This document shows positions 48,524-63,659 of a stretch of 64,000 nt of DNA, in pieces (the first letter of the stretch is position 1; each line of letters starts with the position of its first letter). This DNA comes from Candidatus Nitronauta litoralis (GTDB taxonomy: Bacteria; Nitrospinota; Nitrospinia; Nitrospinales; Nitrospinaceae): positions 2,728,001 through 2,792,000 of the forward strand of contig CP048685.1 in NCBI GenBank assembly GCA_015698285.1. Reading direction: 5' to 3'. The notes under the pieces were generated by a model. That model was not told the DNA's origin, made no database searches, and saw nothing but the letters and a program-made list of their open reading frames with translations. The position numbers and the translations under genes were made by a program.

Positions 48524-50284
48524 TCAGGAAGTGGCGACTTGCTGGGGCTTCTGAGCAGGGAATAACTGATTGGCCAACTCGATATCTTCAGGCAGGTGAA
48601 CCTCCAGCCAGCCTTTGTGGATTTCAAGATAGTGCACACTGAATCCTCGCTCGATCATTTCCTGAATGAGGTCGGTGAAGCGGAATTTTGACATGTTTTC
48701 CGCCTCCTGGATGCCACCTTGAAAATTCCGTGCGCAATCTTCATAGGTCTGCAGGAGTTGCTCGACTCCTGTTGCTGAAAATTTTGCCAGGCCGATGAAC
48801 TCATGAGTCGCCGTGGCCGGATCTATCTTTTTGCTGATTTGGGCGATGGTTCTCTGGAAGTCAAAATTTATATTGCGTCGTAATTTTTGTTTTTGATTGG
48901 CGCCGATAACATAGTCGTGAATTTTGCCGGGCACCGGTCCGTGATATTGGATGGAGTTGTCGACCACCAGTACGATATCTTCCTTGCGATCCATCAGCTT
49001 TTTGATGATGTCGAATTCAACGAGAATATCTGAGTAGAGCAGAGCAAACCCATTGGTCATTTTTTCGCGTGCACACAGCATGCTGTGAACTTCTGAGCCT
49101 TGTCGATAGTCCGGGTTATGCACAAAGTTGATACCTTCAGCAGACATTTTATCCGCCGCAAACCCGGTAACTACGGTGATGTCGTTCAGGCCATTGACAT
49201 TGAGTGCCTTAACCTGCCGGTTGAGAAGAGTTTTTCCTGCTATGTCCAGCATGGCAAGAGGACAGTCGGTCGCCATGGAACCTAAGCTTGATGTGTCGCC
49301 TGCAGCCGGAATGATCACGTGGATGTTTTTATTAGACTCAGACAGTTTGTCTTTTTCTGTGACAGCAAGAAATCCCACGGCACGAAAGATGTCTTTTACC
49401 GGAGCGCATAATGCATCGGCTTCAAGACTGCGCTGATTGGAAAGGATACTTTGTGCCGTCTGGATCATCGATTTGTAAGCGGAACGAAGCAGGTGGTTTG
49501 CGTGGATCACCACATTGAAGCCGGCGGCTTTCAATTCATCTTCCTGAATACTGTTGTAGGTTGTTGGCACGCACACCAGGGGGCGTTGGATGCCGAGACG
49601 CTTTTGCAGTTCTTTGTAATGTTCGGCGAAACTCAGAATTTCAGTCGGATCCTTGGATTTGGAATGAACCATAATGCCGTCGACACCTGCTTCAAGATAA
49701 GTTTCCGCACGCATGAGGGCATCGCTCAATCCCATTCCGGCAATGAAACTTTCAAGACGCGCAATGATTAAAAAGTCCTGGGTCATCTGGACGGCCTTGC
49801 CGCGCTTGATTTTTGCCGCAAACAGATTGGGGGCTTCCAGGGTCTGGTTTGCTCCCGCCTCAAGACTGTTGCGCTTTGGGAATACCTTGTCTTCGATGAT
49901 GACAGCAGACACTCCGGCTCTCTCCAGTTTGGAGACCATGTATTCAAAATTATTGGGATCCCCTCCCGTGTCACCATCAACGATCATGGGTTTGTGTGTG
50001 ACTGCCAGAATTTCATTAATGGTGTGCAAGCGTGAATCAAAACTGATGACTTCAATATCCGGGTGACCCTTTCCCGCTGAATCGGTGAGGCTACTTTCCC
50101 AAATGGCATCAAACTCCATTACAACCTCTGTTTCACCAGATTGGCCTTCAACTTTGACCGTGTCGGCAATGATGCCACTGAGCCCGTTGTGGGCTTCGAG
50201 TGCTCGAACCAGATGGCCCTGGTTAATCAGTTGTTTTAATTTTCCACGTCTTTGTTCGGGAAGGATTTTATTTTGAAGGGTCAT
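48524..50284 (-). CDS. Phosphoenolpyruvate mutase fused to a nucleotidyltransferase-like domain
   Basis: 586 aa. N-terminal isocitrate-lyase-superfamily domain has the PEP-mutase loop EDKVFPKRNS at residues 131-140 and VDGDTGG at 102-108, the signature of phosphonopyruvate synthesis, the first step to C-P compounds. From about residue 322 there is a nucleotidyltransferase fold (IPAAGDTSSLG, LDIAGKTLL), of the type that makes CMP- or CDP-activated phosphonates in PntC. The usual G-x-G-x-R and PK signature is changed to TSSL and PL, so activity is uncertain. No phosphonopyruvate decarboxylase or transaminase is in the window. Confidence 0.85.
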   Translation of the reverse strand: MTLQNKILPEQRRGKLKQLINQGHLVRALEAHNGLSGIIADTVKVEGQSGETEVVMEFDAIWESSLTDSAGKGHPDIEVISFDSRLHTINEILAVTHKPMIVDGDTGGDPNNFEYMVSKLERAGVSAVIIEDKVFPKRNSLEAGANQTLEAPNLFAAKIKRGKAVQMTQDFLIIARLESFIAGMGLSDALMRAETYLEAGVDGIMVHSKSKDPTEILSFAEHYKELQKRLGIQRPLVCVPTTYNSIQEDELKAAGFNVVIHANHLLRSAYKSMIQTAQSILSNQRSLEADALCAPVKDIFRAVGFLAVTEKDKLSESNKNIHVIIPAAGDTSSLGSMATDCPLAMLDIAGKTLLNRQVKALNVNGLNDITVVTGFAADKMSAEGINFVHNPDYRQGSEVHSMLCAREKMTNGFALLYSDILVEFDIIKKLMDRKEDIVLVVDNSIQYHGPVPGKIHDYVIGANQKQKLRRNINFDFQRTIAQISKKIDPATATHEFIGLAKFSATGVEQLLQTYEDCARNFQGGIQEAENMSKFRFTDLIQEMIERGFSVHYLEIHKGWLEVHLPEDIELANQLFPAQKPQQVATS

Positions 50285-50668: not shown

Positions 50669-52036
50669 TCAATTCATGATGCGCGCGATGTCATTATAAA
50701 AGGCAAATACCATCAGTGAGAGTATCATGAACAAACCTACCTGGGCAGCGCGCTCACGGTTGCGCTCGCTTACAGGGCGGCCTTTCAGGATTTCGATCAG
50801 GAAAAAGAAAATGTGGCCGCCATCCAGAATCGGTATGGGAAGCAGGTTGATGAGTCCCAGATTGATGCTGAGCAATGCTGTCAAGCGTATGGTTTGCATA
50901 AACCCTTGCTGGGCCTGCTCTCCATAAACCTGAAAGATCAGGATTGGGCCTCCGATAGAATTCGAGGGCACGGAACCAAAAATCATTTTCTGGATGCTGA
51001 TCGCGATGAGTTTGATCATTCCCCAGGTTTCTTCGAGAGAGCGGATGATAGCTCCAGGAAGGCTGTAAGACTGTTGCAGCATGTTGCCACCCAGGTTAAG
51101 CCCTATCAATCCTCTTTCAACAGAAAGCCCTTTTTCATCCTTTATTGTTTTGGGCTCAGGTGTGACTGGCAGATCCAATTGCTTGCCGTCGCGAATAACC
51201 GAGAAAATCAACTCCTGTCCCGGCTTGTCGATTGCTGTGGGAACCAGATCCTGGATTTCCCGGATAGGAACGCCATCCACTGCAACCAGGCGATCGTCTA
51301 CTTTTAAACCTGCGGTGTCTGCTGCGGAACCTTTATCGACGTAGGTGATTAAGTTTCGCAGTGACCCGATTCCGATAAGTCCTACTTTTTTTTCATCACC
51401 TAATAGATCCGTTACTTTATCCACGACGGGGGTAATAGAAAGCGGGATCAGTGTGTTACTTCTGTCGATCATGAAATCAATCTTCTTGCCAGGTGAGTTA
51501 TGGACAATATCCAAAAGCTCTTCCCAATACTGAATCTTTTTTCCATTGATCTCGACAATACGGTCGCCGGTTTTTATTCCTGCTGCGCTGGCGGGAAAAT
51601 CTTCCTTTACATTGCCGACTGTGGTGTCCAGCGAGGGCACACCGGCGATATAAACCCCGGCAAAGATCAGGATGGCAAAAATAAAATTAAAAAGAGGACC
51701 GGCGAAGGCGATGGCGATTCGGTGCCCGACCTTGGCGTGATGAAAAGACCCTGTGGTATCTTCTAGTTCTTCATTCGGGTCTTCTCCCTTCATTTTCACA
51801 TAACCGCCAAGAGGAATTGCCGCGATTAGGTATTCGGTCCCTCCCTTTGTGAAACCGACTAATTTGGGGCCGAAGCCAAGCGCAAACTTTTCCACGATTA
51901 CCCCGTAGCGCCGGGCAACCAGAAAATGCCCCAACTCATGGACGAATATGAGTGCAGCCAGTCCGGCTAAAAACGCACCCATGCGCAACCCGAAATCGAG
52001 CAGAGTGTCCAGAGGGAATAGCGAAAGTTCAGTCAT
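50669..52036 (-). CDS. rseP: Site-2 intramembrane protease RseP
   Basis: 455 aa inner-membrane metalloprotease that cleaves anti-sigma factors and signal-peptide remnants. HExxH zinc motif in FVHELGHFLVARRYG near residue 28, second motif NLLPIPILDGGHIF near residue 395. Two periplasmic PDZ domains lie between (near 120-205 with SAAGIKTGDRIVEINGK and near 210-300 with DTAGLKVDDRLVAVDG). 17 bases after lolA. Genes for stress sigma/anti-sigma are not adjacent. Confidence 0.95.
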   Translation of the reverse strand: MTELSLFPLDTLLDFGLRMGAFLAGLAALIFVHELGHFLVARRYGVIVEKFALGFGPKLVGFTKGGTEYLIAAIPLGGYVKMKGEDPNEELEDTTGSFHHAKVGHRIAIAFAGPLFNFIFAILIFAGVYIAGVPSLDTTVGNVKEDFPASAAGIKTGDRIVEINGKKIQYWEELLDIVHNSPGKKIDFMIDRSNTLIPLSITPVVDKVTDLLGDEKKVGLIGIGSLRNLITYVDKGSAADTAGLKVDDRLVAVDGVPIREIQDLVPTAIDKPGQELIFSVIRDGKQLDLPVTPEPKTIKDEKGLSVERGLIGLNLGGNMLQQSYSLPGAIIRSLEETWGMIKLIAISIQKMIFGSVPSNSIGGPILIFQVYGEQAQQGFMQTIRLTALLSINLGLINLLPIPILDGGHIFFFLIEILKGRPVSERNRERAAQVGLFMILSLMVFAFYNDIARIMN

Positions 52037-52053
52037 GATTGTGGGGTTACGGG

Positions 52054-52722
52054 TTACTGTTGCTCGGAGAAGTCGATGATTTCGACTCCCGCCGGAGCCT
52101 TAAACAGGAACAGGTTGTCGTTCAGGGTCGGGTTGACCTTGATGTCTGTAAATCTCATTTCCGTGTGATTACCTAATTTATCATACACGCTGGATCCCAA
52201 TATCTGGAAATTTTTCTTGTCTGCAAAAAGAACAAGGTGATCGATATTTTGTTCTTCTTCTTTTGGAAACAAGGTGATTTTATAAGTGGTTTCCTGCTCC
52301 AGAACCTGACCAACGTTGAATGATCGGGTGAGTTTTCCCTTTCCTGCCAGAAACAGGGCTGGTGTGTTTGAGGAATAAACACTTTCGATTTTCATACGGG
52401 TGGCCTGTTTATCATCCGGAAGGTAAAGCCATAGAAAGTCTTCATCGCTGATGAGTAGCTGTGGATCTGGTGCTGAATAGTTCCATTTCATCCTCCCCGG
52501 CTTTTTTATCAGAACACTTCCTTCCGCAACCTGGGACTGCCCCATTACTTTAAGGTAGGATTTTTGGATAAACCTGGCTTTCAGGCTGGTGGTGGCGTCA
52601 TATCTTTTTTGCACGGCAATTATAGTTTCATCTGGATTGAGTGCCAGGGCGTTGGTGTTTATTGTGGCCGAAATAAAAACAGATATGGCAAAGGATAAAA
52701 GACAACGCTTCCGTTTTGTCAT
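52054..52722 (-). CDS. lolA: Outer-membrane lipoprotein carrier LolA
   Basis: 222 aa periplasmic chaperone that takes lipoproteins from the inner membrane to the outer-membrane receptor. Signal peptide at residues 1-27 (LLSFAISVFISATINTNALA). The mature protein shows the open-barrel pattern: GSVLIKKPGRMKWNYSAPDPQ near residue 75 and a late FLFKAPAGVEII. Its start overlaps the purN stop by 4 bases. Confidence 0.88.
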   Translation of the reverse strand: MTKRKRCLLSFAISVFISATINTNALALNPDETIIAVQKRYDATTSLKARFIQKSYLKVMGQSQVAEGSVLIKKPGRMKWNYSAPDPQLLISDEDFLWLYLPDDKQATRMKIESVYSSNTPALFLAGKGKLTRSFNVGQVLEQETTYKITLFPKEEEQNIDHLVLFADKKNFQILGSSVYDKLGNHTEMRFTDIKVNPTLNDNLFLFKAPAGVEIIDFSEQQ

Positions 52723-53345
52723 AAGGAGGGCTCCTGGATGGAGACTCGGCGGCCTTCAACGCAAATTCTATTTTCCGCAATCAGCCGGACAGCCTCGGGG
52801 TAAATTTTATGCTCTTCTTTCAAAATACGGGCTGAGAGTGTTTCGGCGGTGTCCTGTTCTTTTACCGGTACAACCGCCTGTAGGATGATGGGGCCGGTAT
52901 CTACTTCTTCATCTACAAAATGGACGGTGCAGCCGGAATACTTGACTCCATGGTCGATGGCTTGTTGCTGTACATCAAGCCCGGGAAATGAAGGCAAGAG
53001 AGAAGGGTGGATGTTGATTATTTTGCCTGAGAAAGCCTGGATAAACTTTGACGTTAAAATTCGCATGTACCCGGCAAGACAGATAAGGTCTACGTTTTCA
53101 GCCTGAAGAAGTTTAACTAAAACGGCATCATATGCATCCCTGTCCGGGTAATCCTTTGGATTAATAAATTTGGATGGTATTCCGGCTTTCCTGCCCCGCT
53201 CCAAAGCCTGAGCATTTTTTTTGTTACTTATGATGAGTGCGACCTCAACGGGTAGGGAGCCTGATTCGACCTGGTCCAGAATCGATTGTAGATTTGTGCC
53301 TCGCCCCGAGACTAGAACAGCGATTTTAAATGTAGAGGTGGGCAT
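52719..53345 (-). CDS. purN: Phosphoribosylglycinamide formyltransferase 1
   Basis: 208 aa, purine synthesis step 3: GAR plus 10-formyl-THF gives FGAR. Start ATG 53345 gives MPTSTFKIAVLVSGRGTNLQ; a longer frame upstream lacks conservation. Conserved sites: LAGYMRILTSKF near residue 90, NIHPSLLPSFPGL near residue 110 and HFVDEEVDTGPI near residue 138, with catalytic Asn, His and Asp. 4 bases overlap with lolA. Sits between lpxC and lolA, a placement without obvious functional link. Confidence 0.94.
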   Translation of the reverse strand: MPTSTFKIAVLVSGRGTNLQSILDQVESGSLPVEVALIISNKKNAQALERGRKAGIPSKFINPKDYPDRDAYDAVLVKLLQAENVDLICLAGYMRILTSKFIQAFSGKIINIHPSLLPSFPGLDVQQQAIDHGVKYSGCTVHFVDEEVDTGPIILQAVVPVKEQDTAETLSARILKEEHKIYPEAVRLIAENRICVEGRRVSIQEPSL

Positions 53346-53447
53346 GGGTAAAGTTCCGGATGGCTGAATGGCAAGAACAGCAATGTATTTCAAGACAAGT
53401 TAAGCGTACCACTCTGGATTTTCAGGGGCAAGTGGGGGAGACGAAGG

Positions 53448-55433
53448 TCAGTTGGGCAGGTTTTCCTGGATCGTTTTTATCAGTCCCACGTTCTGTGTGT
53501 GTCCCGATTTGTGAGCCGAAATTTTTCCGCGTATGGGTTTGCCCAGAAGGTAAAAATCGCCGAGTATGTCGAGAATTTTATGGCGGGCGAATTCATCCGG
53601 GTAACGCAATTCGGTGTTAAGTACTTTGCCATCACCCAGCATGATAAAGTTGTCGAGCTTTCCGCCAGAGGCAAAGCCAAGCTTTGTGAGGGCAGCCACT
53701 TCCTCCATAAAACCGAAAGTGCGTGCCGGGGCAATTTCTTTTTTAAAGCCCTCAAAGTTTTCGTACTTGAAGGTGTAATCCATAGTTCCGATGGGTTCTG
53801 GGTATTCCATGTGGTAACTCACCTCAAAGCCATCGCAAGGCGCTATTTTTATATGAGCGCCCTTTGGGTCGCCAAAAGAGTATTCTTTGTCGATTACAAG
53901 TTCCTCATACGGGGAGTCCTGTTCTTCGAATTCACCATCTTCAACCAGTTGGCAAAAGTCTTTTGCAGATCCATCCATCACCGGTGCTTCGTCCCCAATT
54001 TTGATCAAAAGGTTATTGATTCGATACATATGGAGAACTGCCATGATGTGTTCAATGGTGCCCACTGAGAAAAAACCTTTTTTTATACATGTGGAGTATT
54101 CGGTAGACTCCACGTTTTCTGGCTTGGCAGGTATGGTTGCCGTGCTGGAAATATGGCCAAAGATGATTCCCGAGTTGGGTGGCAGGGGTTGCATGATCAG
54201 TCCCGTTTTGATTCCTGAGTGCAGACCGCTTCCACACAGAACGACACTCCTTTTGAGCGTGCGCTGGCGTGGTAGACGTGATGCTCCTTTTTCCCTCGCA
54301 GTCGAAATGGCTTCTGATTCATCCAATCCGACAGGTGGGGGAAGATGGTCGATATTGATAACGTCGTCCGGGTGCACCTTGCGGGCGATGTTATCGAGAA
54401 AGTCCCGCAGTTCTTTAAGGTTCCCTGGCCAGTCGTAGGCGACTAGTCTTTCCATGGCCTCATCGTCAACAGAATGCGGTGTGTAATTTCCGTATTCGGC
54501 GAGTTCCTCAAAATATTTTTTTACAAGAATCGGAATATTGTCCTTGAAGTTTTTTAGTGGCGGAACTTCCAGGGTGTTTTTGCTTAGGATGTCCAGTAAC
54601 TCCTTACGAAATTTTCCCCGTTCTACTCTCCGTGACAGGTCTACAGAGGTGGAAGCGAACACACGTGCTGGCAGAAAGGGGGCATCGTCCTCTGATTTCA
54701 ACGCCTGGATCAGTTTGTCCTGCAAGGTGGGGCTGAGTGCTTCAATGTTTTTTAAATACACTACCCGATCACCTGGCGTGGATGCGCTGCTTTTCCCCTT
54801 GCGAACAAACAATTCCTGTTGCAGTGAAGTCATGGATCTTGACGGGCAATTGATTTTCATGAAAGGCAGGCGGGAATTCTTGCTTTCCATATGTATAGCC
54901 TGTGCGACAAACTCTTTCCCGGTGCCCGGAGCCCCCTGGATCAACATCGGGTGGTTGTGGCGCGAGGCTTCCTTAATCTTTTTTTTGACATCCACCATGA
55001 TCTGAAAACAATGCGGCAGTTCAGGTTTGGAATTGCCGTTATGCGGTCCCTGGTCGACTCGGGTTTGTTTTAGCTTCAGAGCCTTATCCACTGACTGGAC
55101 CAGTTGGTCCAATGAAAAGGGTTTTTCGATGAAATCAAAAGCTCCCAGTTTGGTCGCCTTGACCGCAGTGTCGATCGTGCCATGCCCGGACATGATCAGA
55201 ACCTCTATTTCCGGGTGATAGGTCTTGATCGTCTTGAGGACTTCGATGCCATCCATCCCTGGAAGCCAAATGTCGAGCAGGACCAAGTCCGGCGGGTCAG
55301 ATTGCACCTGTTCCAAGGCATCAAGCCCGTCGTCGGCGGTATCGATCCTGTAACCTTCGTCTTCCAGAATCCCATGGAGGGAACTGACAATGTTTTTTTC
55401 ATCATCCACAATGAGGACGCGGGGTTTTGACAA
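53448..55433 (-). CDS. lpxC: Fusion: response-regulator receiver + degenerate NtrC-type AAA+ + LpxC
   Basis: 661 aa. Receiver, residues 1-120, is complete: acidic pair VDDE at 9-12, phospho-Asp54 (LLDIW), Ser82, Lys104 (EKPF). A sigma-54-activator-like AAA+ domain, about 140-375, keeps Walker A (GAPGTGKE, 167-174) and the late DWPGNLKEL, but Walker B reads YLKNI (226-230) rather than LDE, and GAFTGA is gone. From ~388 to the end is LpxC, UDP-3-O-acyl-GlcNAc deacetylase, the committed lipid A step: SVGTIEHIM (Glu461, His462), HKILDILGD (His618, Asp622) and HKSGH (His645) keep the zinc and catalytic residues. No Fis/HTH domain. Reading frame is uninterrupted. The sensor kinase is not nearby. 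Confidence 0.93.
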   Translation of the reverse strand: MSKPRVLIVDDEKNIVSSLHGILEDEGYRIDTADDGLDALEQVQSDPPDLVLLDIWLPGMDGIEVLKTIKTYHPEIEVLIMSGHGTIDTAVKATKLGAFDFIEKPFSLDQLVQSVDKALKLKQTRVDQGPHNGNSKPELPHCFQIMVDVKKKIKEASRHNHPMLIQGAPGTGKEFVAQAIHMESKNSRLPFMKINCPSRSMTSLQQELFVRKGKSSASTPGDRVVYLKNIEALSPTLQDKLIQALKSEDDAPFLPARVFASTSVDLSRRVERGKFRKELLDILSKNTLEVPPLKNFKDNIPILVKKYFEELAEYGNYTPHSVDDEAMERLVAYDWPGNLKELRDFLDNIARKVHPDDVINIDHLPPPVGLDESEAISTAREKGASRLPRQRTLKRSVVLCGSGLHSGIKTGLIMQPLPPNSGIIFGHISSTATIPAKPENVESTEYSTCIKKGFFSVGTIEHIMAVLHMYRINNLLIKIGDEAPVMDGSAKDFCQLVEDGEFEEQDSPYEELVIDKEYSFGDPKGAHIKIAPCDGFEVSYHMEYPEPIGTMDYTFKYENFEGFKKEIAPARTFGFMEEVAALTKLGFASGGKLDNFIMLGDGKVLNTELRYPDEFARHKILDILGDFYLLGKPIRGKISAHKSGHTQNVGLIKTIQENLPN

Positions 55434-55479
55434 GGATGGCTCCTTTTGGCTGGAGGGTTCGCAGTACTGCTTTATTCTA

Positions 55480-56121
55480 TCAGGGGCAGGGCACTTTTAC
55501 GAAGTCTAGATAATAAATCTTTTTTCCCTGATTGAGGAAATTTTTTTCGTATTTGGTGCGGGGAACGTCTTCGCGATGGTTGGCGAACCCTGGATCCTGG
55601 TGCAGGTTTCGAAACCCGGGGTCACCCTCAAGGACTTCCAGCATTTCCATGGCATATTCTTCAAAGTCGGTTGCCAGGCGAAGTCGGCCTTCCGGGACCA
55701 GTTTTTCCCAAAGAGTCCTGACGACATGGGGTTTGATGAGCCGCCTTTTATGATGTCTCTTTTTGGGCCAGGGATCCGGGAAATTGATATAAATCTCCGT
55801 GAGTTCAGCCTCCCTGAATAAAAACGGGATTTTTTCCTTGGCGTCTCCGTAAACGACTCTGATGTTGGTCAGCCCATAGCGAGACATCCGGGTGAACAGT
55901 TTCCGAATTCCTTTATGATAAAAGTCCAGACCGATCAGGTTGCAATCCGGTCGCTGCACGGCCATGTCGAGAAGGAAACTACCATTACCAAATCCTATTT
56001 CCAGTACAACCGGCTGGCTGTCTCTGAATTGCTCTGGCCAGTTTGGATACTCTTCGGGATCAAGGAAATAAGGATTGTCTTCTGCAATCGTTTCAAATTT
56101 TAAAAGTGGCTTTGATGACAT
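55480..56121 (-). CDS. trmB: tRNA (guanine-N7-)-methyltransferase
   Basis: 213 aa SAM-dependent methyltransferase for m7G46 of tRNA. SAM motif LEIGFGNGSFLLDMA near residue 40, and the TrmB-specific NFPDPWPKKRHHKRRL near residue 115. ATG at 56121 after a gap to greA of 99 bases. 46 bases before the receiver-LpxC gene on the same strand. Confidence 0.95.
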   Translation of the reverse strand: MSSKPLLKFETIAEDNPYFLDPEEYPNWPEQFRDSQPVVLEIGFGNGSFLLDMAVQRPDCNLIGLDFYHKGIRKLFTRMSRYGLTNIRVVYGDAKEKIPFLFREAELTEIYINFPDPWPKKRHHKRRLIKPHVVRTLWEKLVPEGRLRLATDFEEYAMEMLEVLEGDPGFRNLHQDPGFANHREDVPRTKYEKNFLNQGKKIYYLDFVKVPCP

Positions 56122-56220
56122 GAATAACGTATGGCTTTCTTCAAGGTGATTTTTTCAGATGGGTAGTTGGCTGCTTGGTTCAGGAATAGGGAGAATGGAA
56201 AAAGTTTTAAGTTAAGGGTT

Positions 56221-56697
56221 CTATTCTGTACCCATATTGTGGATGGTGACGAGAAGGGTTACTTCAAAATAGGATTCGTTTCCCCCAAACCTCATGATAA
56301 CTTCATCTCCTTCCTTTTTACCCACCAGGCTTTTGCCAATGGGAGATGCCGGGGAGATCCGTCCTGTATCCGGGTCGACTTCTTCAGGGAAAACAAGGTA
56401 GTAAACTTTATCCTCATCCGTATCCAGGTTTTTCAAATGAAGCTTGCTTCCCAACCCAGCACGATCTTTTGGAAGGCGGGCCACATCAAGCTGCATGACA
56501 TTGCTGATTCGGCCCTGCAATTGAGAGATTCGTGATTGAAGAAACGTCTGTCGTTCCTTGGCGGCTTTATATTCAGCGTTTTCACTAAGGTCTCCCATAT
56601 CGGTGGCAATTTTGAGTGCCTTGGGGATATCCACCTCCAGCTCACGCTTGGTTTCCATTAATTCGTTTTCAAGTTTGTCGAGGACCGGCAACCGCAT
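56221..56697 (-). CDS. greA: Transcription elongation factor GreA
   Basis: 158 aa. N-terminal coiled coil with LKIATDMGDLSENAEYKAAKERQ near residue 31 carrying the acidic Asp/Glu tip, and C-terminal domain with SPIGKSLVGKKEGDEV near residue 118. Rescues backtracked RNA polymerase. Standard length. Downstream of rlpA with a gap of 135 bases. Confidence 0.96.
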   Translation of the reverse strand: MRLPVLDKLENELMETKRELEVDIPKALKIATDMGDLSENAEYKAAKERQTFLQSRISQLQGRISNVMQLDVARLPKDRAGLGSKLHLKNLDTDEDKVYYLVFPEEVDPDTGRISPASPIGKSLVGKKEGDEVIMRFGGNESYFEVTLLVTIHNMGTE

Positions 56698-59966: not shown

Positions 59967-62900
59967 ATGAAACCAGCGCCTGGGTTCTGGTTCTCCATTG
60001 ATCGCGGTGGAACGTTTACAGACGTATACGCCGAGGTTCCCGGGCAGCCGGGTTTCCGTCTGGTAAAACTTCTTTCAAAGAACCCGAAACACTACGCCGA
60101 CCCGGCAATCGAAGCTATTCGCAGGATCATCACTGATGTTACGAGAAAACCCTGGCATCCTGAAACGTCTGCGGGCGAAATTGATTCTGTTCGAATGGGA
60201 ACGACCCTGGCCACCAACGCTCTATTGGAAAAAAAGGGAACCCGCACGGCTCTCGTCATCACACGCGGTTTCGGTGACCTGCTCGAAATAGGAAAACAAA
60301 ACCGACCTCACCTGTTCGAACTCAAAATTAAAAAACCGGATAACCTTTACGAGGCCGTTGTCGAGGTCGACGAAAGGGTCCGTTTGCCGATTAATGGGAA
60401 AAAGACAAGCGAGGTTGAGATTATAAAAAGTCCGGACCTCGATAGGTTGCGCGAGGACTTCACGGTTTTGAAGAAGAAGGGGGTAGTCAGCCTTGCAGTG
60501 GTTTGTCTCCACGCCTGGTGGTTCCCCGACCATGAGCGGATGATCGGGGACCTTGCACGGAAAGTTGGATTTGAATTTGTTTACCTGTCGCATGAAGTGA
60601 TGCCTCGTATCAAGTTTGTAGATCGTGGTCAGACCTGCCTGGTCGAAGCTTATTTAACACCAACTATCCGCAGTTACTGCGAATCGTTTTCGGAAGCTTT
60701 TCACCAGGTTGAACCAGAACTGCTGTTCATGCAATCCGACGGAGGGTTGGTTCCTCCACAAAGATACACAGGCAGCAATGCGATTTTATCCGGGCCGGCT
60801 GGCGGAGTCGTTGGGTATTCGCAATCAGTATGGAAGGAGGAAGACAAGGTTCCGGTTATTGGCTTTGATATGGGGGGGACTTCCACCGACGTATCCCGGT
60901 TTGACGGGGAATACGACCTGATACAAGAGAGTATGGTCGCAGGAATTCATTTGCAAACCCCCCAGTTGGATATTCATACCATTGCAGCGGGGGGCGGTTC
61001 TCTTTTGACTTTTCAAAACGGGATGCTGGCAGTCGGGCCAGAGTCTTCAGGGGCCTACCCTGGTCCAGTTTGCTACCGCAACGGTGGTCAATTGTCGATT
61101 ACCGATGCCAACTTGTTTCTGGGAAGGTTACATCCTGATTTTTTTCCTAAAATTTTTGGGAGGGGGCAGGATGAATCTCTTGACCAACAAGAAACCCGCC
61201 GCGCGATGACCACCCTCACGGAAGAGATAAATCATTACGTTCAGGAAAATGGTGGATCCACTATGTCTCCTGAACAGGTGGCAGAAGGTTTTATAGAAGT
61301 TGCCAATGAGCAAATGGCGAGAGCTATCCGTGAAGTGACAGAGACTCGGGGTTTTGATGTGCGCGACCACATCCTGGCCTGTTTCGGTGGTGCTGGTGGT
61401 CAACACGCCTGTGCTTTGGCCCGGGCGCTGGGAATCCGCAAGGTGGTGATTCATCGTTTTGCCGGGATTCTTTCGGCCTACGGGCTCGCTTTGGCAGACG
61501 TTGTCCGGGATCTTCAGGAACCGGTCGCTTTTGAGTTGGCAGACAGCGCTCTTCCGGAAATACGGGAACGGTTTCAAAAGTTAGAAACAAAGGCAAAAGG
61601 TCAATTGAATTCAGATGGATTTGTGGGAGGAGCAATTCAAATTCAACGCTATCTTCAACTTGCTTACAAGGGAACCGATTTTGGGGTGATGGTAATTGAA
61701 GAAGAGGATAAACCCTTTGCAGACAGTTTTAGAGAATTGATACAGCGTCAATTTGGTTTCCTGCCGGAAGAGAAAACAATCTGGGTGGAAGCGTTAAGGG
61801 TTAGAGCCATTGGCAAAAAAAATCGTCCCGAGATTCCAGACCTTCAGACGGTAAATTCGACCCCGGTTCCAGAATCCACCACATCCTGTTTTTTTGAAAC
61901 GGACTGGTTTGAAACGTCCATTTATAGATGTGAAAACCTGGGTGCTGGACACGTGATTGATGGTCCGGCACTTCTTATACAAAATACTTCGACCATTGTT
62001 GTGCCACCTGATTGCCGTGCCGAGTTGACTTTGCAGGGCGACGTACTTATCGACATTACTCTCATTGGAAAAAAACAGACTGGTGAAGAATACGACCCCG
62101 TTCGTCTAGCTGTTTTTGGCAACAGGTTTATGTCGATAGCCGAGCAGATGGGGCATGTACTAAAGCGAACTGCGTTGTCGACCAATATAAAAGAGCGCCA
62201 GGATTTTTCATGCGCCCTGTTCTCACCTGAAGGTGACCTGATTGCCAATGCCCCTCATCAACCTGTTCATTTGGGTTCGATGGGAGAAGCGGTAAAAGCG
62301 CAAATAAGGTTGCAAGGTCAGGACTGTCAGGAAGGGGATGTTTGGATAAGTAATCATCCCGTTACCGGAGGAACCCATCTCCCGGATATCACGGTGATCA
62401 CTCCAGTTATTGAAAAGGGGAGACCTGTGTTTTTTGTTGCCAGCCGAGGCCACCACGCCGATATCGGAGGAATAGCACCGGGTTCAATGCCCGCCTCTGC
62501 AACCCGCCTGGTGGAGGAAGGGGCCGCTATCAAATCTTTTAAACTGGTTGATCGCGGAAACTTTCAGACTGAGGGGATCACCCGCTTATTGACCGAATCG
62601 AATTCCAGGGACATCGATGGAAATTCAATTCCCGGATCCCGTGCTCTTGCAGATAATCTTTCCGATTTAAAAGCCCAGATAGCAGCGAACCGGAGGGGTT
62701 GTGAATTGTTGAACGAGTTGATCGAATCCCAGTCGCTGAAGACAGTCCACGCGTACATGCAATATATCCGGAACAGCGCGGCACAGGCCGTCACTGAATG
62801 CATTGCGAAGCTTTCAGGCGGATCGAAAAAAATCCTGACGGCAGGCGACCATATGGATGACGATACAGAGCTTTGTCTTCAATTGGAGTTAAATCCCAAC

Positions 62901-63659
62901 GGAAAGGCGTTGTTCGATTTTTCCGGGACCGGTTCAGAGGTTAAAGGGAATCTGAATGCGCCACGTGCTGTCACCTATTCTGCGGTACTTTATTGTCTGC
63001 GTTGCCTGGTAGGGGGAGAAATTCCTCTTAATCAGGGATGCCTCGATCCAATCGACTTTGAAATTCCACCGGGTTCTATCCTGTTTCCTTCTGAAAATGC
63101 TGCAGTGGCAGCGGGGAATGTGCTCACATCTCAGCGGGTAGTCGATCTGGTTTTCAAAGCTTTGGGGACAGTTGCCGCTTCCCAGGGGTGTATGAATAAC
63201 CTTACTTTTGGCAATGACCGTTTTGCCTATTATGAAACGATTGGGGGTGGGGCAGGGGCCGGTCCTGATTTTAGCGGTGCTTCAGGTGTTCACACTCACA
63301 TGACGAATACCCGAATTACCGACCCGGAAGTTTTGGAGTTGCGGTACCCGGTATTGTTGCGTGAATTTTCAATCCGAAGAAATTCAGGCGGCAAAGGGAA
63401 ATTCTCCGGTGGCGATGGGCTTATCAGGGAGATTGAATTTTTGGAGAAGATGCATGTGGCTATCCTGTCTGAACGAAGAGTGTATGCGCCTTACGGACTT
63501 CATGGAGCTGCTAGCGGGGAAACAGGAAAAAACTATTTGATCCGGAAGGATGGGGTCCAACAAAACCTCGGAAGCAAAGTTGAGTTTGAAGTTCAACCCA
63601 ATGAACGGGTCAGAATTCTTACGCCCGGTGGCGGCGGATTCGGGCCTGGTGATGGATGA
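59967..63659 (+). CDS. 5-oxoprolinase/hydantoinase, HyuA-HyuB fusion
   Basis: 1230 aa; ATP-dependent ring-opening of 5-oxoproline or related cyclic amides. HyuA half (1-700): start [31 protein letters not shown] near residue 270, [14 protein letters not shown] near residue 296. HyuB half starts near residue 710 with [19 protein letters not shown] and has [18 protein letters not shown] near residue 765 and [24 protein letters not shown] near 1095. The full fusion is of the length of mammalian and many bacterial 5-oxoprolinases. One gene, about 70 bases after the MBL hydrolase; possibly the same transcript. Confidence 0.93.

Follow-up and report, generated by a model that had tools for sequence, protein, structure and literature searches.

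In a genome of the Nitrospinaceae, LpxC forms the C-terminal domain of a longer protein that begins with a two-component receiver and continues through a degenerate AAA+ domain. LpxC determines the quantity of lipid A in Gram-negative cells; its known controls are proteolysis and transcriptional regulation within broad regulons. Because LpxC is here permanently joined to the receiver of NtrX, it is probably the enzyme, rather than the gene, that a membrane sensor switches. The fusion, its conservation, its NtrX ancestry, the loss of the transcription machinery and the retention of the kinase NtrY can all be read from the sequences. The features of the gene in the window, that is, the whole 64,000-nucleotide stretch of DNA that was analysed, are collected in Table 1.

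Table 1. Features of the fused gene and its protein in the window.
Feature	Residues	Position	Strand	Basis and remarks
Fused receiver, degenerate NtrX-type AAA+ and LpxC gene	1-661	53448..55433	(-)	661 aa, single ORF; TTG start at 55433
Shine-Dalgarno-like AAAAGGAG 5' of the TTG start		55440..55447	(-)	Read directly (55447-55440); kept in L032
NtrX-type receiver	1-122	55068..55433	(-)	Pfam Response_reg 6-115, 2e-34; REC tree; signature
Phospho-acceptor Asp54	54	55272..55274	(-)	Invariant, 117/117 fused proteins
Degenerate AAA+ core	145-293	54555..55001	(-)	Pfam Sigma54_activ 1e-18; Walker A present, no GAFTGA or Walker B
Walker A GAPGTGKE	167-174	54912..54935	(-)	Sequence motif
AAA+ lid	297-369	54327..54545	(-)	Pfam AAA_lid_14 5e-13
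Linker	370-388	54270..54326	(-)	Fis-type HTH remnant here in many relatives, absent in the window protein
LpxC domain	389-661	53451..54269	(-)	Pfam LpxC 390-656, 3e-79; all catalytic residues present

The preliminary description of this DNA had reported an uninterrupted frame from receiver to LpxC between 53448 and 55433. Frame and coordinates are both correct, and we add the strand, which it did not give. All four Pfam domain calls on the protein lie over their cut-offs. The nearest relatives of the window protein come from other Nitrospinaceae genomes; in one of these (L032, 90% identity) the ribosome-binding site and the TTG start are both conserved. The fused gene encodes the single LpxC of a 3.92-Mb, single-contig genome. 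Since there is no other LpxC in the genome, the fusion must supply LpxC activity. We also considered a stand-alone LpxC made from an internal start and rejected it: the nearest in-frame candidate is a TTG at residue 370, which has no Shine-Dalgarno sequence.

The gene lies in a run on the (-) strand that is conserved in Nitrospinaceae and consists of greA, trmB, fused lpxC, purN, lolA and rseP (window 50669-56697). Two further genes of the window deserve mention. Between proS and rseP, positions 48524-50284 encode a phosphoenolpyruvate mutase domain followed by a C-terminal region that resembles a nucleotidyltransferase (motif recognised by eye), which suggests a role in phosphonate metabolism. 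Positions 59967-63659 encode a 1230-aa protein of the caprolactamase / acetophenone carboxylase (hydantoinase) family in which an alpha-like and a beta-like half are fused.

The LpxC domain scores over the curated cut-offs (266.7 against 27 for Pfam, 228.7 against 187.25 for NCBIfam TIGR00325). For measures of constraint we used a set of 117 distinct fused proteins, and in all 117 of them E461, H462, H618, K619, D622, D626, H645 and N648 are invariant. It is likely that the fused LpxC is a working deacetylase, as expected of the sole LpxC in the genome. All fused LpxCs fall into a single clade (support 100/99). In 108 of the 117 chains the C-terminus lies no more than 13 residues past the conserved domain, and hence there is little space for a C-terminal tail of the type through which FtsH degrades the E. 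coli enzyme; such a tail is also absent from some unfused LpxCs. LapB could not be used to trace proteolytic control, because the Zn_ribbon_LapB model has matches in many LPS-free genomes as well, apparently to RadA. In AlphaFold models the individual domains fold, and there is no defined interface between receiver and LpxC (pTM 0.48 for the window protein, 0.67 for L050).

The receiver carries the signature LLDIW...SGHG..TAVKATKLGAFDFIEKP, and its phosphorylation pocket is complete (Asp pocket, phospho-acceptor Asp, Ser/Thr, Lys). Asp11, Asp54 and Lys104 are found in 117 of 117 fused proteins; Ser82 is replaced by Cys in three and present in the other 114. The residues named earlier in receiver and enzyme (Asp54, Ser82, Lys104, Glu461, His462, His618, Asp622 and His645) are thus all correct. 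Between the window protein and L032 the receiver has the slowest amino-acid change of the three domains, with dN of 0.013 against 0.041 in LpxC and 0.128 in the AAA+ core, values that we use as a ranking only, synonymous sites being near saturation. In the public record of another relative, unresolved residues within the receiver (L042:6100-6200) are a data gap and not a change.

The AAA+ domain has decayed in the way previously claimed. In the window protein the Walker B DE is replaced by Lys228-Asn229, and the GAFTGA loop that contacts sigma-54 is missing, as it is from the whole aligned fused set. The further claim that this domain cannot drive sigma-54 transcription is supported as well, since all of the window's order has lost both GAFTGA and Walker B. 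A Walker-B-like hhhD[DE] motif (DD) survives only in L150-L153 among the fused forms. Walker A is retained in 48 of the 50 fused forms that contain an AAA+ domain, and the domain may be an ATP-sensing spacer or assembly module, as suggested earlier. In some lineages, however, the whole domain is missing: two classes outside the Nitrospinota, and at least three lineages within that phylum (G029; family f7 with G067 and G068; f5 with G061). Hence, the AAA+ domain is dispensable for the core function.

Judged from sequence, the receiver-AAA+ part is derived from NtrX. A tree of receivers places the fused forms with NtrX and separates them from the genome's other response regulators (93/88). On average, the window receiver is 54% identical to the NtrX of lpxC loci and 34% identical to its own paralogues. 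Among PDB folds, Brucella NtrX matches the receiver-AAA+ part best, and the top NCBIfam match of this part is also NtrX, under the cut-off of that model. Long branches dominate the AAA+ domain tree, in which the fused AAA+ stays unplaced. A Pfam search found no Fis-type HTH in the window protein. In L152 a sub-threshold HTH of this type lies between lid and LpxC, L146 has lost the AAA+ and retains the receiver, an HTH remnant and LpxC, and the same remnant occurs in several other genera. At lpxC loci of unfused Desulfobacterota, ntrY and ntrX are both present in nine of 20 cases, several of them also with DUF4390, and the NtrX encoded there has an intact Walker A, GAFTGA-type loop and Walker B. 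Among the many receivers of the window's genome we found no second one that resembles NtrX. The preliminary description missed both the NtrX origin of the receiver-AAA+ part and the fact that the kinase, NtrY, can be identified. The receiver tree, the fold match, the HTH remnants and the single LpxC clade together argue for one event in which an entire NtrX was joined to LpxC; the middle part would then have decayed and been lost repeatedly.

The fusion is not a one-off and spans at least three deep lineages. LpxC is matched in 65 of 77 Nitrospinota genomes. Frames clear of contig ends measure 460-797 aa there, and every one that was extracted contains a receiver; short frames, for example in L020, L022, L182 and L188, begin at contig ends. 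The two other lineages are classes that probably belong to Desulfobacterota. In the class of G078 and G081, LpxC is present in 92 of 98 genomes and nearly all frames have at least 410 aa; in the class of G083 it is present in 40 of 46 genomes, with frames mostly near 460 aa. The few short frames in these two classes are again mostly at contig ends. Both classes have an architecture of receiver, linker of about 25-50 residues and LpxC, without AAA+. We suspect that the Desulfobacterota class containing L046-L051 is Binatia. Desulfobacterota as a whole do not share the fusion: in a sample of 297 genomes the best-scoring LpxC frames are mostly about 300-350 aa long, and those that were fetched are unfused. 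A search of plasmids gave only NtrC-type matches and no record with 80% query coverage.

The most likely partner of the receiver is NtrY. A gene for an NtrY-type kinase (NtrY_N, HAMP, PAS, HisKA, HATPase) lies directly upstream of the fusion, on the same strand, at 41 of 41 usable loci of the G078 class and at nine deep Nitrospinota loci. It does not adjoin the fusion at 30 Nitrospinota and 22 G083-class loci, and it is absent from the greA-to-rseP run in the window. The window's genome encodes its NtrY about 97 kb from the fusion (G000:C1:2880038-2882317), after a DUF4390 gene and followed by an aldehyde dehydrogenase gene; this kinase is 48% identical over its full length to NtrY of deep Nitrospinota. 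Most Nitrospinota genomes have a single NtrY ortholog, and NtrY and LpxC occur together in 59 of 77. Six have LpxC without an NtrY match; these are mostly incomplete, although G029 is 91% complete. NtrY-like kinases are found in 39 of the 46 genomes of the G083 class. No response regulator stands beside NtrY at any of 20 inspected Nitrospinota loci, all of which have DUF4390 upstream, or beside the NtrY-like kinase at any of 13 inspected G083-class loci. In the window's family and in the G083 class, where kinase gene and fusion lie apart, inheritance and elimination are the grounds for pairing them. DUF4390 lies directly upstream of ntrY at nearly all inspected Nitrospinota loci (e.g., L301:10296-11039) and also occurs at some Desulfobacterota lpxC loci; its product is a candidate for a third component of the pathway.

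From these observations we propose the following history. At the ancestral locus lpxC, DUF4390, ntrY and ntrX would have stood together, with NtrX composed of receiver, AAA+ and Fis-type HTH. This NtrX would then have been fused to the N-terminus of LpxC. The parts needed for transcription would have decayed, up to the loss of GAFTGA, Walker B and HTH in the window protein and the deletion of the whole AAA+ in other lineages, and receiver and enzyme would have been retained throughout. Most likely the membrane kinase NtrY phosphorylates Asp54, and this phosphorylation would alter how active or stable the LpxC domain is, how it oligomerises or where it is located. The commitment to lipid A would thereby be set on the enzyme itself. 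We think that this account is probably correct. A covalent phosphorelay input to LpxC had already been suggested in the preliminary description, and the suggestion gains from the universal conservation of Asp54 and Lys104, from the low rate of change in the receiver, and from the adjacency or retention of NtrY. The phosphotransfer itself we infer, together with the direction of its effect and the physical mechanism.

One could also argue that the receiver is a fixed structural or docking domain, which, for example, brings LpxC to NtrY at the membrane or dimerises it, and that phosphorylation does not regulate LpxC. LpxC is, after all, functional already as a single domain, and the models show no defined contact between receiver and enzyme. 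A pure scaffold, however, would not need Asp11, Asp54, Ser82 and Lys104 all at once, yet these are kept in 114 to 117 of 117 proteins, and it is the receiver that changes least. We therefore regard a purely structural role as unlikely. About equally unlikely is that a kinase other than NtrY phosphorylates the receiver in Nitrospinaceae and in the G083 class, where NtrY is encoded in trans. The non-adjacent loci described above, and the many kinases and receivers in the window's genome, would be compatible with such a kinase. Against it stand the single-copy NtrY that lacks a neighbouring response regulator at all 33 inspected loci, and the failure to find a further NtrX-like receiver in the window's genome.

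Is the fusion mainly still a transcription regulator that additionally bears LpxC? The HTH remnant of many relatives and the widespread Walker A could be taken to say so, but the window protein has neither HTH nor GAFTGA, and the AAA-less forms of two classes lack both, which makes this reading very improbable. Least credible of all, to the point of being negligible, is an assembly or frame artefact, for which reads between the AAA and LpxC parts were to be checked according to the preliminary description. Most relatives are indeed metagenome assemblies. Nevertheless, a frame artefact is excluded because the uninterrupted fusion, without stops, recurs in dozens of independent genomes, and constraint specific to each domain is conserved in them. 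Phosphorylation of the fused receiver by NtrY hence remains the reading that we prefer.

If it is true, a phospho-receiver on LpxC that is fixed across whole classes would be a different way to couple envelope signals to outer-membrane synthesis. The lineages form a series from separate lpxC, ntrY and ntrX through a fusion with HTH remnant and one with decayed AAA+ to a bare receiver-LpxC, and in this series one can read how a transcription factor turned into a domain of its apparent target enzyme. The natural short forms of about 420 aa are suited to testing in vitro. In the open-access papers that we searched (most subscription papers lie outside this scope) we found no description of a receiver-LpxC fusion. 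A 2025 review of lipid A regulation treats NtrYX as a transcriptional influence on lpxC, describes no two-component system acting on the LpxC protein and does not contain the word "fused" (PMC12444477).

A link between NtrYX and lpxC has been found before. In R. sphaeroides, loss of NtrYX raises the lpxC transcript 8.8-fold and increases LPS (PMC7240162), and according to the review NtrYX also affects lpxC transcription in C. crescentus (PMC12444477). NtrX does not bind at the lpxC promoter of R. sphaeroides (PMC7240162); therefore, the older link between NtrX and lpxC may be indirect there. The NtrYX systems of Rhodobacter, Caulobacter and Brucella share with the fusion a homologous receiver and AAA+, the domain set of NtrY and the connection to lpxC or the envelope. 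In these systems, however, NtrX is a separate DNA-binding transcription regulator, whereas here the LpxC protein itself contains the receiver, and the parts needed for transcription are gone. D. vulgaris, too, has two-component control dedicated to lpxC, which is the only target of its NtrC-family regulator DVU2934; in S. fumaroxidans, lpxC lies directly upstream of the operon orthologous to that of DVU2934 (PMC3333781). Compared with the fused receiver by its published description, DVU2934 differs in being transcriptional and unfused.

The enzymes of E. coli, P. aeruginosa and A. aeolicus resemble the fused LpxC in fold (TM up to 0.94 on target length) and in every catalytic residue. The post-translational control known for them is proteolysis by FtsH/LapB, whereas the LpxC of the window has an N-terminal receiver. 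Receivers joined to enzymes are already known as a kind: CheB, GGDEF, EAL, HD-GYP and PP2C are response regulators with enzymatic outputs, and they resemble the fusion in that the receiver is covalently joined to the enzyme. Their outputs are signalling enzymes, whereas the enzyme in the fusion carries out an essential step in making a lipid.
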